Assembly: GCA_946186925.1 (NCBI GenBank) | Contig: CAMHPA010000005.1 | Span: forward strand, 1 to 64,000 | Direction: 5' to 3' | DNA from: an uncultured Bacteroidota bacterium | Lineage (GTDB): Bacteria > Bacteroidota > Bacteroidia > Bacteroidales > SZUA-534 | DNA length: 64,000 nt | Part shown: positions 2,775 through 8,044 of the stretch, one piece after another | How positions within the stretch are numbered: the stretch's first letter is position 1 | Layout: every line of letters begins with the position of its first letter | Position numbers and translations under genes: made by a program | Notes under the pieces: model-generated | Told to the model about the DNA's origin: nothing | The model's input: only the letters and a program-made list of their open reading frames with translations | Database searches by the model: none

Positions 2775-5318
2775 ATGAATACTAAAATTATTGCAACAAT
2801 GCTGCTCGGAAGTCTTGCATTGGCTTCGAGCGCACAACAAGTTTCAGATTCGACGGCAGCAATTCCGTTAGTCTATCCGATGGAGAACACAGGCATGTTA
2901 TTTGAAAAACCTGCAATTCTTACAGCCGACCAAATGGAAAGCTGCGCAACTTTACCCGACCCTTTTGCCTGGTCTGACGGTTCTGGCCGCTCAGAAGAGT
3001 TTGCCGATTGGGCAAAACGCCGCAATGAGATCAAGAGCGAGGTCGAATATTATGAAATAGGTGTCAAGCCTGATGTGGACCGTGACCAAGTCGACGCTAA
3101 CTATGTGGTTACCTACTACGAAAAGGATACTGCGATACGGGAGTTTTCTTGGGCGACATGGAGTTTCGACACTGTGTACCACAAAAAAGGCGAACTTAAA
3201 TCTTCTAATCTTGAGGTTTTTGTTACCGTAAACGATTCAACAGCACGCCTGACATCAAGTATAACCATACCTGAAGGCGATGGACCGTTCCCGGTATTCA
3301 TCAGCCTGGGCGGCTCGGGTTTTGCCGGCGATTTCCCCGGTTGCATCCAATTGAGTTTCAATACTGACCAAGTGGCCACATATGGAAGCTCAAGTGCCCG
3401 ATATGACGGCGACATTTCCAAACAGAAAGATCAATTTAACTCACTTTATCCAGAACTATATGGCAACGGCAACTACAGCAAATGGGCCTGGGGTGTGAGC
3501 CGTTTGATTGACGGTCTGGAAATTGCCAATGAAAAAGGGCAACTGAAAGCTGATATAGCGCACATAGCGCTTAGCGGATGCTCGTATGCCGGCAAAATGG
3601 CCATGTTCTGCGGCGCATTCGATGAGCGCGTTGCTCTTACCATAGCCCAGGAACCTGGTGGCGGCGGCGCAAGCGCATGGCGTACCATCGATTATGTTAA
3701 TAAGAACAACGTAATGAAAAAACGCAGCGACGGTGTTGAAGGTCTCGGCAACACTAACTACTCTTGGTTTATGGCCAGCCTCCAAAAATTCAACGGTAAG
3801 GCCGACCTTCTTCCACACGACCACCACGAGATTCTGGCGATGTGCGCCCCACGTGCACTGTTAGTACTCGGCAACACTGACATGGAGTGGCTTTGCGACT
3901 ACTCGACTTACATCACTTGCCGCGCCGCCGAAAAAGTGTACGAGACATTCGGCATTGAGGACCGCTTCGGATTTGTTATTGACGGCGGACACGACCACTG
4001 CTCGGCAACAACCGCTGAAAGAAACGCTGTTAAAGCTTTTGCCGCCAAATTCATCTTTGGCGATACCACATCCAACACGCTTATCCGCACGGCCCTCAAC
4101 GGCAGCCAATACGACATTGAGGACGCCGACTACGAAAGTTGGATTGAAGAATGGAAACCTGCCGACCCGAATCGTCCGAGTATCAGCATTGTAGAACCAA
4201 CCTCCAGCACAACTTACAGAGCTGAAGATGCACCTGAATCTGTCAAATTTAAAGCGCAGGTTGAAGACAAAAACAATGATGTTGCAAAAGTTGAATTCTT
4301 TGTGAACGGCACTGTGGCAAAAACTGTGACAGCCGCTCCGTACGAATTTGAACTGAAACTTACCGAACCTGGCGACTACAACGTTTATGCAATTGTAACC
4401 GATGCCACCAATTTATATAAGAGGTCGGGAACAATCTCAATTGTAGTAAAAACCCCCGAGGTAGGCGTCAAGCGCACCCCTGCCGCTCCAAAAATCGACG
4501 GCTTACTCGACGATGTTTGGACCAATGTCGAAAAACTATATGCTAAAAATGTGGTTCAAGGTTCATTTGACGATGAGGAAGATTTAAGCGGCCACGTCCA
4601 ACTGCTGTGGGATGACACTTACATATACGCATTTGCAACCGTTGTCGACAATGAACTTAAAAACGACAGTGGCTCTGATGTTTACAAAGATGACAACATT
4701 GAGTTGTACTTCGACTGCAACAACTCGAAGGGCGGCTCTTACGACTCCGACGATGTTCAATTCTCGTTCAACTATGGTAGCACAAGCATATATACCAAAT
4801 CAGGTTCGGGCGACAACCAATATTCCACTGAAGGAATCGAATTTGTGATAGACGAAAACCGTGATGGTTACAATGTTGAAGTTGCAATTCCCTGGGCTAC
4901 AATCAAGTGCGAACAACCCAAGGATGGATTGAAGATAGGATTCGAATTTATGATTGATGACGACGATGATGGCGGCGACCGCGATGGCAAGCTCGCTTGG
5001 AACTCAACCGAAGATAATGCTTGGCAGAGCGCATTTTCGTTTGGAACCATCACAATTGTGAACGATGTTGTCAATACCGCTATTGGTGAAGAATTGAAAC
5101 AGCTGGCTTCGCTATACCCGAGTCCGGCAACTGATTTTGTATTCGTAAACGGATTTGAAGGTGATTTCAATTATGAAGTTTTTGATGTATACGGAATAGT
5201 AAAAGCTGCGGGTACGGCCAGCAAACGCATCAGCGTGGCAACACTACCCAAAGGCCTCTACATTGTTCGAATCAAAGATGGAATTTTGACTCGCAACTTG
5301 CGGTTTGTTAAAGAATAA
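2775..5318 (+). CDS. Secreted CE15-like glucuronoyl esterase with Ig-like, CBM9-like and T9SS type A sorting domains
   Basis: Signal peptide; ALSGCSYAGKMAMFCGAFDERV nucleophile region, EPGGGGAS, GGHDHCS; Ig-like module near SISIVEPTSSTTY; CBM9-like KIDGLLDDVWTN...LLWDDTYIYAFATVVD; C-terminal SLYPSPATDFVFV...LPKGLYIVRIKDGILTRNLRFVKE. Confidence 0.82.
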   Translation: MNTKIIATMLLGSLALASSAQQVSDSTAAIPLVYPMENTGMLFEKPAILTADQMESCATLPDPFAWSDGSGRSEEFADWAKRRNEIKSEVEYYEIGVKPDVDRDQVDANYVVTYYEKDTAIREFSWATWSFDTVYHKKGELKSSNLEVFVTVNDSTARLTSSITIPEGDGPFPVFISLGGSGFAGDFPGCIQLSFNTDQVATYGSSSARYDGDISKQKDQFNSLYPELYGNGNYSKWAWGVSRLIDGLEIANEKGQLKADIAHIALSGCSYAGKMAMFCGAFDERVALTIAQEPGGGGASAWRTIDYVNKNNVMKKRSDGVEGLGNTNYSWFMASLQKFNGKADLLPHDHHEILAMCAPRALLVLGNTDMEWLCDYSTYITCRAAEKVYETFGIEDRFGFVIDGGHDHCSATTAERNAVKAFAAKFIFGDTTSNTLIRTALNGSQYDIEDADYESWIEEWKPADPNRPSISIVEPTSSTTYRAEDAPESVKFKAQVEDKNNDVAKVEFFVNGTVAKTVTAAPYEFELKLTEPGDYNVYAIVTDATNLYKRSGTISIVVKTPEVGVKRTPAAPKIDGLLDDVWTNVEKLYAKNVVQGSFDDEEDLSGHVQLLWDDTYIYAFATVVDNELKNDSGSDVYKDDNIELYFDCNNSKGGSYDSDDVQFSFNYGSTSIYTKSGSGDNQYSTEGIEFVIDENRDGYNVEVAIPWATIKCEQPKDGLKIGFEFMIDDDDDGGDRDGKLAWNSTEDNAWQSAFSFGTITIVNDVVNTAIGEELKQLASLYPSPATDFVFVNGFEGDFNYEVFDVYGIVKAAGTASKRISVATLPKGLYIVRIKDGILTRNLRFVKE

Positions 5319-5437: not shown

Positions 5438-6802
5438 TTAAATAATCTTCTCAAGTTTCGATACGTTGCGGTCAATATCCTCTTGCGGCAACTCGAAGTT
5501 GGTCAGGTCGCCGGCCAGATATTGGTCGTAAGCGGTCATATCGATGAGTCCGTGTCCCGAAAGGTTGAACAGAATGGTCTTCTGCTTGCCTTCTTCTTTG
5601 CATTTGTTGGCCTCGCGAATGGTGGCGGCGATTGCGTGCGCCGACTCTGGTGCGGGAATGATGCCCTCAACCTGTGCAAACAACGTTGCTGCCTGGAACG
5701 ACTCAAGTTGCGGAATATCAACACCTTTCATCATACCGTCTTTAAGCAGCTGGCTCACAATGGTTCCGGCGCCGTGATAGCGCAAACCGCCTGCGTGAAT
5801 GTGAGCCGGTGCAAAATCGTGGCCCAGAGTGAACATCGGCAGCAGCGGTGTGTAGCCGGCTTCGTCGCCAAAATCGTACTGGAACACGCCGCGCGTCAGT
5901 TTCGGGCACGATGAAGGTTCGGCGGCGATAAACTCTGTAGTCTTGCCATCGACAAGGTTGTGGCGCATAAACGGGAACGAAATTCCACTGAAGTTTGAGC
6001 CACCACCGAAGCAGCCAATCACCATATCGGGATACTCGCCTGCCATAGCCATCTGTTTTTCGGCCTCAAGACCGATAACTGTCTGATGCAGAGAGACGTG
6101 GTTCAGAACGCTGCCGAGAACATATTTGCAGTTCGGGGTTTGCATTGCTAGTTCAACAGCCTCCGAGATGGCCGTTCCAAGGCTTCCCTGATAAGTCGGG
6201 TTGGCGGTCAGAATGTTCTTTCCCGCACGCGTGCCCATTGATGGCGATGCAATCACCTGTGCGCCATAAGTTTGCATAATCAGTCGGCGATATGGTTTTT
6301 GGTTGTAGCTCACCTTCACCATAAACACAGCCAAATCGAGTCCGAAGACTTTGGCGGCATACGACAGAGCCGCACCCCACTGACCTGCGCCTGTCTCGGT
6401 GGTGATGTTGGTCACGCCTTCTTTCTTGCAGTAGTAAGCCTGCGCCAGAGCCGAATTCAGCTTGTGCGAACCCACAGGGCTGACACTCTCGTTCTTGAAG
6501 TAGATGTGCGCGGGGGTGTCGAGCGCTTTCTCAAGACCATAGGCGCGCACCAGCGGTGTCGAACGGTAGTTTTTGTACTGATTGCGCACCTCCTCCGGGA
6601 TGTCAATCCAGCGGTCGGTGGTGTTCAGCTCCTGCTCCGAGCAGGCGCGGTTGAACAGTCCCGACATCTCGTCGACCGTGAGCGGCTTGCGAGTTCCCGG
6701 GTTAAGCATCGGCAGCGGCTTGTTTTTCATATCGGCCACAATATTGTACCATTGTGTTGGTATCTCGTTCTCCGTCAGGAAGAACCTCTTTTGTTTTTCC
6801 AT
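5438..6802 (-). CDS. trpB: TrpB2-type (TrpB-like) tryptophan synthase beta chain
   Basis: PLP fold-type II motifs: SHKLNSALAQAYYCKKEG, TETGAGQWGAALSYA, GCFGGGSNFSGI, HAGGLRYHG, NLSGHG; 454-aa length typical of TrpB2. Confidence 0.9.
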   Translation of the reverse strand: MEKQKRFFLTENEIPTQWYNIVADMKNKPLPMLNPGTRKPLTVDEMSGLFNRACSEQELNTTDRWIDIPEEVRNQYKNYRSTPLVRAYGLEKALDTPAHIYFKNESVSPVGSHKLNSALAQAYYCKKEGVTNITTETGAGQWGAALSYAAKVFGLDLAVFMVKVSYNQKPYRRLIMQTYGAQVIASPSMGTRAGKNILTANPTYQGSLGTAISEAVELAMQTPNCKYVLGSVLNHVSLHQTVIGLEAEKQMAMAGEYPDMVIGCFGGGSNFSGISFPFMRHNLVDGKTTEFIAAEPSSCPKLTRGVFQYDFGDEAGYTPLLPMFTLGHDFAPAHIHAGGLRYHGAGTIVSQLLKDGMMKGVDIPQLESFQAATLFAQVEGIIPAPESAHAIAATIREANKCKEEGKQKTILFNLSGHGLIDMTAYDQYLAGDLTNFELPQEDIDRNVSKLEKII

Positions 6803-6852
6803 TTTTTGATAGTTTTTAATTGATGTTTAAATGTACCTTCAGAATATTAAAA

Positions 6853-6881
6853 AAGCCCGCAAGTGGAGTGCTTACGGGCTT
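6853..6881 (-). terminator. Attenuator terminator of the trpB2 leader
   Basis: Minus-strand AAGCCCGTAAG-CACTCCA-CTTGCGGGCTT (11-bp stem, one G-U) followed by TTTT, between the leader ORF and trpB2. Confidence 0.9.
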
Positions 6882-6904
6882 AAATCTTACAACAAACCGA
6901 CGGG

Positions 6905-6976
6905 CTAATCCTCCACTTTAATTTCGGACTGGCGCCACCACCATTGTTTGCTGTTCAAATTGTTTACGTTGTTCAT
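6905..6976 (-). CDS. trp leader peptide MNNVNNLNSKQWWWRQSEIKVED
   Basis: 24-codon ORF with three tandem TGG codons upstream of an intrinsic terminator and a tryptophan synthase gene. Confidence 0.85.
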   Translation of the reverse strand: MNNVNNLNSKQWWWRQSEIKVED

Positions 6977-7072
6977 TTTTTTTCTTGTCAAAACGTTGCG
7001 AAGTAAAAATTTTTTTTGTGAAAGTGCAAGCGTTTTCTTGAGATTGTGTTTCAATAAAATGTGTCACACTGT

Positions 7073-8044
7073 TCACACCACAAACTGCATAATCTCTCGT
7101 GCCAGAACCGAGTACAGTCCGCCAAGCACCATTACTATTTTAATAAGTGTGCTGATGCGCTTGTAATGCTTCACCTCGCTTGCGCGGATGGTCATAAATG
7201 CGGCGGCGCAGGCGGGGGCAATCAGAAGGGCGGCAATGTAGATAAGTGTCAGAAAATCGTGCAGAAACAGCTGGTAAACGGCCAACAGGCAGGCTATCAT
7301 AAGCAGAAAGAGCGACACAACAACAATCTTCGATATTCGCATACCGAAGTGGATGGGGAGCGTGTCGCAGCCGCAGTAGCAGTCGCCTTCAACGTCCTCC
7401 ATATCTTTCACAATCTCACGGATAAGGTTGGTGAGGAAGGCGAAAAATGCGAATCCTGCGGTCCAATATAATATTGGTTTGAAAGTCAGACCGTTGGCGA
7501 TTATGCTGAATCCGTATGCGCGGGTCAGTTCGGCGCACTCAAAAATGCCTTCTTGTATTGGTATTGAGGCGGTTACTAGTGCAACAACAATGTTGCCGAC
7601 AAGCAGTTGCTTTTTGTAAGTGGTTGAATATAACCAATATAATCCTGAAATCATCAGGTAGAAAAGAAGTATCGATATTCGGCCGAAATGCCACGCAAAT
7701 ACCGCCGCAAGCAAAATGGCCGCCGCGTTGAGTGCGGAGTGGTAGATTATGGCGTGCCGGCGCGGCAGCGTACGGTCCACAATCACCTTGTCGGGACGGT
7801 TGATGGTGTCAATCCGGCGGTCGAAATAGTCGTTGATTACATATCCGGCGGCGCCTTGCAGCACATTAATCAGTATCAGAATGGTGAAGTAAAAGCCTGA
7901 CAATTGCAAAGATACAACTTCGCCAAGCTGAATCGAATACTGATAGTCGAGTATCGGCTTGATGATGCAGTAGCGCATCAGAATCATTGTGAACGGCACA
8001 ATCAGCAGGTTCGGCCATCGTATTATCGACAGATATTTGTACAT
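7073..8044 (-). CDS. UbiA-family prenyltransferase (geranylgeranylglycerol-phosphate geranylgeranyltransferase-like)
   Basis: NDYFDRRIDTINRPDK Asp-rich motif, multiple TM segments, second motif near REIVKDMEDVEGD. Confidence 0.8.
   Translation of the reverse strand: MYKYLSIIRWPNLLIVPFTMILMRYCIIKPILDYQYSIQLGEVVSLQLSGFYFTILILINVLQGAAGYVINDYFDRRIDTINRPDKVIVDRTLPRRHAIIYHSALNAAAILLAAVFAWHFGRISILLFYLMISGLYWLYSTTYKKQLLVGNIVVALVTASIPIQEGIFECAELTRAYGFSIIANGLTFKPILYWTAGFAFFAFLTNLIREIVKDMEDVEGDCYCGCDTLPIHFGMRISKIVVVSLFLLMIACLLAVYQLFLHDFLTLIYIAALLIAPACAAAFMTIRASEVKHYKRISTLIKIVMVLGGLYSVLAREIMQFVV

Follow-up and report, generated by a model that had tools for sequence, protein, structure and literature searches.

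The RNA family RF01692 (Bacteroid-trp) was listed in 2010 as a cis-regulatory candidate of Bacteroidetes (PMC2864571). In the genomes that we examined, it corresponds to an attenuator with a WWW leader ahead of the Bacteroidales trp operon. A search of 119 Bacteroidales genomes returned nine matches, seven located before trpB1 and two before trpE, all with a WW(W) leader and none located before trpB2. In most matches, a UCGUGAG-like strand can form a duplex with the upper part of the terminator. A second family, RF00513 (the E. coli trpL type), combines a leader containing Trp codons with a 1:2 hairpin, an antiterminator and a terminator. The trpB motif RF04312 consists of two hairpins, the second of which is a terminator, and is sometimes found before a trpB gene. 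It is a proposed riboswitch of Firmicutes and Fusobacteria. The authors of a survey from 2010 stated that they knew of no leader-peptide system demonstrated beyond Proteobacteria and Actinobacteria until their own Firmicutes case (PMC2965389).

Here, we analysed a stretch of 64,000 nucleotides (the window) from a Bacteroidales metagenome assembly, whose nearest named records are rumen MAGs labelled Salinivirgaceae. A sequence-only reading had proposed a trp attenuator upstream of a solo trpB2 on the minus strand. Like RF01692, this element belongs to Bacteroidales and has a terminator downstream of a WW(W) leader. However, RF01692 lies in front of the trp operon, whereas the window element sits on a solo trpB2, and the core pairing is UCGUGAG:CUCACGA in RF01692 but AAGUGGAG:CUCCACUU in the window. 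RF01692 had no match in the window at its gathering score (49 bits), and none in the genome at E ≤ 0.001. The UCGUGAG core itself was also seen in the trpB2 attenuators of loci L064, L065, L072 and L077, as if they derived from the Bacteroid-trp element of the trp operon by copying or by descent.

The window shares with RF00513 the Trp-codon leader and the 1:2, antiterminator and terminator states. This model aligns its own Trp codons and terminator to the window with 23.2 bits, below its gathering score of 41. Unlike RF00513, the window element would regulate trpB2 alone. Furthermore, the textbook E. coli trp antiterminator takes the 5′ arm of the terminator, whereas the antiterminator in the window invades the terminator loop and the 3′ arm. 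With RF04312, the element shares the two hairpins, of which the second is a terminator, and the position before a trpB, but that family was described from other phyla. At gathering score, neither the window nor 20 related loci gave a match to a cis-regulatory Rfam family; no Rfam model matched at trpB2 in this analysis. At lax E-values, the hits of relevance were RF00513 and RF04312, both sub-threshold. A literature search, with subscription papers mostly outside its reach, returned no report of a trpB2 attenuator. The trpB2 element is a well-formed, conserved and apparently uncatalogued case of classical trp attenuation, in which the target gene is new but the mechanism is not. Nor is it unique to this genome, as it is shared across Bacteroidota.

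The trpB2 gene and its leader region

The gene product is a TrpB2 of the PRK12391/TIGR01415 family, as profile searches gave 693.5 bits with NF009057/PRK12391 (cut-off 366) and 598 bits with TIGR01415 (cut-off 518.85). The motifs GSHK, ETGAGQ and GGGSN were found in the protein, and the closest solved structures are the tryptophan synthase beta chains 6hul, 4qys and 6hte. Upstream of the leader, at a distance of 96 nt and on the same strand, lies a prenyltransferase gene (7073-8044). trpB2 probably forms a single-gene transcription unit, because its downstream neighbour (2775-5318) is convergent and because the leader and a plausible promoter separate it from the prenyltransferase gene. The features of the locus are collected in Table 1.

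Table 1. Features of the trpB2 locus; positions refer to the window
Feature	Position	Strand	Basis
trpB2, putatively regulated gene	5438..6802	(-)	ORF reading and profile matches
Intrinsic terminator, 11-bp stem and 7-nt loop, then U-run at 6849-6852	6853..6881	(-)	Sequence and fold
Segment 3, CUCCACUU, terminator loop and top of 3′ arm, partner of segment 2	6861..6868	(-)	Sequence
3′ strand of the 1:2 hairpin	6883..6911	(-)	Minimum-free-energy fold; P(antiterminator) ≤0.36 while intact
Leader ORF MNNVNNLNSKQWWWRQSEIKVED, 23 codons, stop TAG	6905..6976	(-)	ORF reading; Trp-codon leaders at 31/88 trpB2 loci
Segment 2, antiterminator strand AAGUGGAG, 25 nt from start of first Trp codon	6911..6918	(-)	Complementarity, folding, relatives
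Segment 1, 5′ strand of the 1:2 hairpin, includes the Trp codons	6926..6961	(-)	Minimum-free-energy fold
Three consecutive Trp codons TGG TGG TGG (TGGTGGTGG), putative sensing site	6935..6943	(-)	Sequence; in-frame Trp codons common to leaders
Candidate -7 element TACTTCG	6999..7005	(-)	Read from sequence
Candidate -33 element TTGC, Bacteroidales-type promoter	7026..7029	(-)	Read from sequence

The promoter consensus of Bacteroidales is TTTG-N19-21-TAnnTTTG. The candidate promoter in the window reads TTG, 21 nt, TACTTCG, and sister loci harbour TTTGC...TATTTCG at the matching position. From these boxes, the transcription start is expected approximately 15-20 nt 5′ of the leader ATG. Most of the other attenuated loci also have a TAnnTTTG box, about 25-50 nt 5′ of the leader ATG. 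Loci that lack a leader mostly have a promoter-like box near trpB2; where such a box was found, it mostly lies about 35-110 nt 5′ of trpB2 itself.

The 23-aa leader with its three TGG codons and the 11-bp terminator are both present where the sequence-only reading had placed them. The terminator (6881..6853) reads AAGCCCGTAAG-CACTCCA-CTTGCGGGCTT with a T-run and is located 50 nt before the trpB2 ATG at 6802. The claimed complementarity between segments 2 and 3 is likewise exact, as AAGTGGAG at 6918..6911 can form 8 bp with CTCCACTT at 6868..6861. In addition, we found a long competing 1:2 hairpin, in which 6961-6926 pairs with 6911-6883 and which was absent from the list of that reading. At the leader stop, the sequence AGCCCGU (6900-6906, minus strand) repeats the core of the terminator 5′ arm. 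This second copy could in principle pair with the terminator 3′ arm and would then be a weaker second antiterminator.

We folded the leader RNA of the window with the ribosome at different positions. Once CUCCACUU had emerged, the antiterminator probability was about 1.0 for a ribosome stalled on the first Trp codon; it was 0.00 for a ribosome at the leader stop. Without a ribosome, it reached at most 0.36, held down by hairpin 1:2. Once the whole 3′ arm of the terminator was out, the terminator was preferred over the antiterminator in every state, including the stalled one. Antitermination would therefore have to be a kinetic race, a timed event ahead of the full 3′ arm, and its kinetics lie outside what these folds model. 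This is the least certain step of the proposed mechanism.

We interpret the element, with a probability of roughly 0.9, as a ribosome-mediated transcription attenuator of the stand-alone trpB2, with charged tRNA-Trp as the sensed signal. RNA polymerase would start just 5′ of the leader ORF. When tryptophan is ample, the ribosome would clear the WWW codons, reach the stop and mask the antiterminator strand, and after its release hairpin 1:2 would sequester this strand. The terminator would then form and transcription would end before trpB2. Under a shortage of Trp-tRNA, the ribosome would stall on WWW, melt hairpin 1:2 and free AAGUGGAG. The freed strand would pair with CUCCACUU on its emergence, ahead of the remaining 3′ arm of the terminator, and the polymerase would then read through into trpB2. 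The anatomy of the element, its conservation, the covariation and the folding behaviour are shown here by computation, and from them we infer leader translation, the start site, stalling, readthrough and the physiological role.

Conservation of the predicted attenuator at trpB2 loci

Judged on the window alone, the pairing between segments 2 and 3 is borderline, and the case for an attenuator is strong only through the relatives. The 8-bp complementarity gave p = 0.058 against dinucleotide shuffles, the fold energy of the whole leader gave z = -2.2, and terminator-like sites were not above chance (3 found in the stretch versus 2.8 expected). The number of terminator-like sites, the borderline complementarity and the nearby prenyltransferase gene on the same strand would also fit an ordinary terminator of that gene, with a Trp-rich ORF arising by chance. 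We consider this very improbable, because the arrangement recurs at trpB2 in many lineages and because both the pairing position and the switch are far above shuffles. Moreover, a stricter filter, which required an ATG start, WW or WxW and a good terminator, returned a single match among roughly 260 other genes on the same contigs. A looser filter returned nine matches, mostly with TTG/GTG starts or widely spaced W.

To compare the attenuator among relatives, we gathered trpB2 loci from named genomes (80 loci) and from 11 genomes of the genus, followed by samples of the order and the phylum. A Trp-codon leader with a terminator was present at 31 of 88 trpB2 loci. A strict script found 28 of these, and visual inspection added L074, L077 and L060, the last of which has only one Trp codon and starts with GTG. 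Leaders were also present at 23 of the 68 trpB2 genes examined in the order sample (Bacteroidales) and at 7 of 29 in the phylum sample (wider Bacteroidota). Paludibacter sp. 221 is one of the relatives that have the element. The leader peptides are almost wholly different, for instance MKNLISYNRWWWRS, MTNTNKYWWWWQILS, MNLLNNTFSWRWQNLVVVSNEV and MNFLSRNWQGWRHLHSQRS, and the feature they have in common is in-frame TGG. Their Trp codons are arranged as WWW, WRW, WCW, WHW, WQGW or WRWRWW, with WCW, WHW, WWLW and WRWRWW as further patterns in the order sample. As the patterns vary and the Trp codons are always in frame, it is the codons that are selected. In L014 and L077, short extra ORFs (MNTFREDEVFRWRKMINERLGK and MTTGDWRDVEKVITKTEK, respectively) are located between the terminator and trpB2.

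The codon patterns also bear on a small-molecule riboswitch, with a tryptophan or indole aptamer as in RF04312 and a short ORF that would be incidental. RF04312 scores 25 bits at the window, and its authors favour a riboswitch for their motif, with a classic attenuator still possible for them (PMC11109978). However, this score is far below the gathering score of 59 bits and the model is non-specific, with many matches in every relative and 18 in this genome at E ≤ 10, so that we rejected an identity with RF04312. What is constant among the loci is in-frame TGG with arbitrary codons in between (WRW, WCW, WHW, WQGW), and not a conserved core sequence. A riboswitch at this locus is therefore hardly probable.

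Within the genus, segments 2 and 3 show a compensatory change from G-C to U-A in L084 and L089. In L084, the counterpart of the window pairing AAGUGGAG:CUCCACUU is AAGUGGAUUG:CAAUCCACUU, in which both strands have changed and pairs were gained. The terminator arms also vary on both sides within the genus. Across lineages, too, the competing pairings are kept by compensatory change. In L084, L088 and L089, the leader stop is located before, or at the start of, the pairing strand, and the RNA pairing is kept. Since the stop codon has moved and the pairing has not been lost, selection acts on the RNA and not on the tail of the peptide. The sequence-only reading had assigned the pairing strand to the KVE codons of the leader; the strand is indeed located there, but the KVE residues are not what is conserved, and a role for them as peptide was rejected on the basis of these three loci. 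The same reading had pointed to conserved Trp codons and covariation in relatives as a check, and both the recurring in-frame Trp codons and the compensatory changes were found.

A role in trans has been documented for a trp leader peptide in Sinorhizobium, peTrpL (PMC7298713). For trpB2, action mainly in trans, by the leader peptide or by the terminated leader RNA, is the least probable of the explanations weighed here, because the peptide is not conserved outside the Trp run and the cis pairing shows compensatory change. A trans role would be at most additional to attenuation in cis.

We compared the predicted attenuators with shuffled sequences. For each locus, the best pairing partner of the upper part of the terminator was taken as the test strand, and its position and behaviour were then scored. 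A locus was counted as a switch when the pairing probability was >0.9 with the RNA covered by a stalled ribosome removed and <0.5 with that RNA present. In 20 divergent loci, the antiterminator strand always started 19-31 nt after the first Trp codon (20/20 versus 28% of shuffles), and the mean antiterminator stem was 7.75 bp compared to 5.33 bp in shuffles (z = 8.6). Switch behaviour was observed in 80% of these loci versus 8% of shuffles (z = 11.5); because the best duplex was chosen as antiterminator, a high stalled probability arises partly by construction, for which the shuffles control. In 30 out-of-sample loci, which had not been used to set up the tests, the stem gave z = 8.3, the strand was at the right position in 80% (29% of shuffles) and 47% behaved as a switch (9% of shuffles). 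The logic proposed by the sequence-only reading, in which a stall on WWW frees AAGUGGAG and a ribosome at the stop masks it, agrees with the folding of the window and with the statistics of both sets of loci.

The loci are not uniform. In 4 of 26 elements (L012, L014, L077 and L072), masking of the strand by a ribosome at the stop would be incomplete, and in some loci (L011, L025, L048, L064 and L084) the free leader fails to suppress the pairing. The same folding test gave no switch at L067.

Tryptophan genes elsewhere in the genome and the role of TrpB2

The sequence-only reading had described the attenuator as acting on trpB2 rather than on a trp operon. This opposition does not hold, as the same genome contains a complete trpBEGDCFA operon (order B-E-G-D-C-F-A; locus L106, contig C33, G000:C33:30745-23809) with its own WWW attenuator. 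That attenuator consists of the leader MNTFFGNGNWWWRLQIQICE and a terminator, and its computed switch is as at trpB2. The two elements have the same architecture but differ in leader, in core (UUGUGAGU:ACUCACGA at the operon) and in the genes they would control, trpBEGDCFA and trpB2, respectively. Two loci in this genome thus appear to be under separate Trp attenuators. Because the operon is separately attenuated, trpB2 would join an attenuated operon and not replace one. At another locus of this genome (L104, G000:C37:7485-7606, minus strand), a leader with many Phe/Tyr codons, MLNTPSYFAYYFFYYFSN, and a GC-based strong terminator precede a prephenate dehydratase gene; this is a third candidate, likely an aromatic amino acid attenuator.

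The physiological role of TrpB2, a tryptophan synthase beta chain, is unsettled, and the regulation of trpB2 informs this role. The TrpB2 of T. maritima has an indole KM below 1 uM (PMC11535334). BT_RS23500 of Bacteroides thetaiotaomicron is 59% identical to the Thermotoga TrpB2, and with it an E. coli trpA mutant grows beside wild-type cells, as its authors suggest via indole uptake (PMC11535334). TrpB2 enzymes have also been reported to use O-phospho-L-serine (Busch 2014, as cited in PMC11917138). A search of the genome with TIGR02617 found no tryptophanase. The indole would accordingly be supplied by the community or leak from the enzymes of the trp operon. Control by Trp codons implies that TrpB2 would be wanted when the cell is short of tryptophan, which favours the synthesis of tryptophan from scavenged indole over other possible roles of TrpB2. 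Induction by tryptophan shortage fits an indole-salvage role without proving it. TrpB2 probably recycles indole, and would most likely turn scavenged indole into tryptophan in parallel with the trp operon, which has its own attenuator.

Distribution of the predicted trpB2 attenuator in Bacteroidota

To ask whether the attenuator had one origin, we built a TrpB2 tree. Well-supported branches require at least 8 changes of the attenuator state, and the best tree has 14; this is a quick tree in which gain and loss are not separable. Among genomes of the same genus, L090, L091 and L092 harbour a different TrpB2, which is 77% identical, groups elsewhere in the tree and is leaderless. This suggests a gene replacement in these genomes.

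On balance, we lean towards the view that stand-alone trpB2 genes across Bacteroidota have repeatedly been put under, or have lost, a Trp-codon attenuator of their own, apart from that of the trp operon. If this is true, TrpB2 would be an indole-salvage enzyme induced by tryptophan starvation, and attenuation would be a common and labile mode of regulation in a phylum in which it has been little studied. The many variants that occur naturally at trpB2 loci could be used to find out which of the pairing rules matter, and the trpB2 element points to leader-peptide attenuation as a widespread and evolutionarily labile mode in Bacteroidota.
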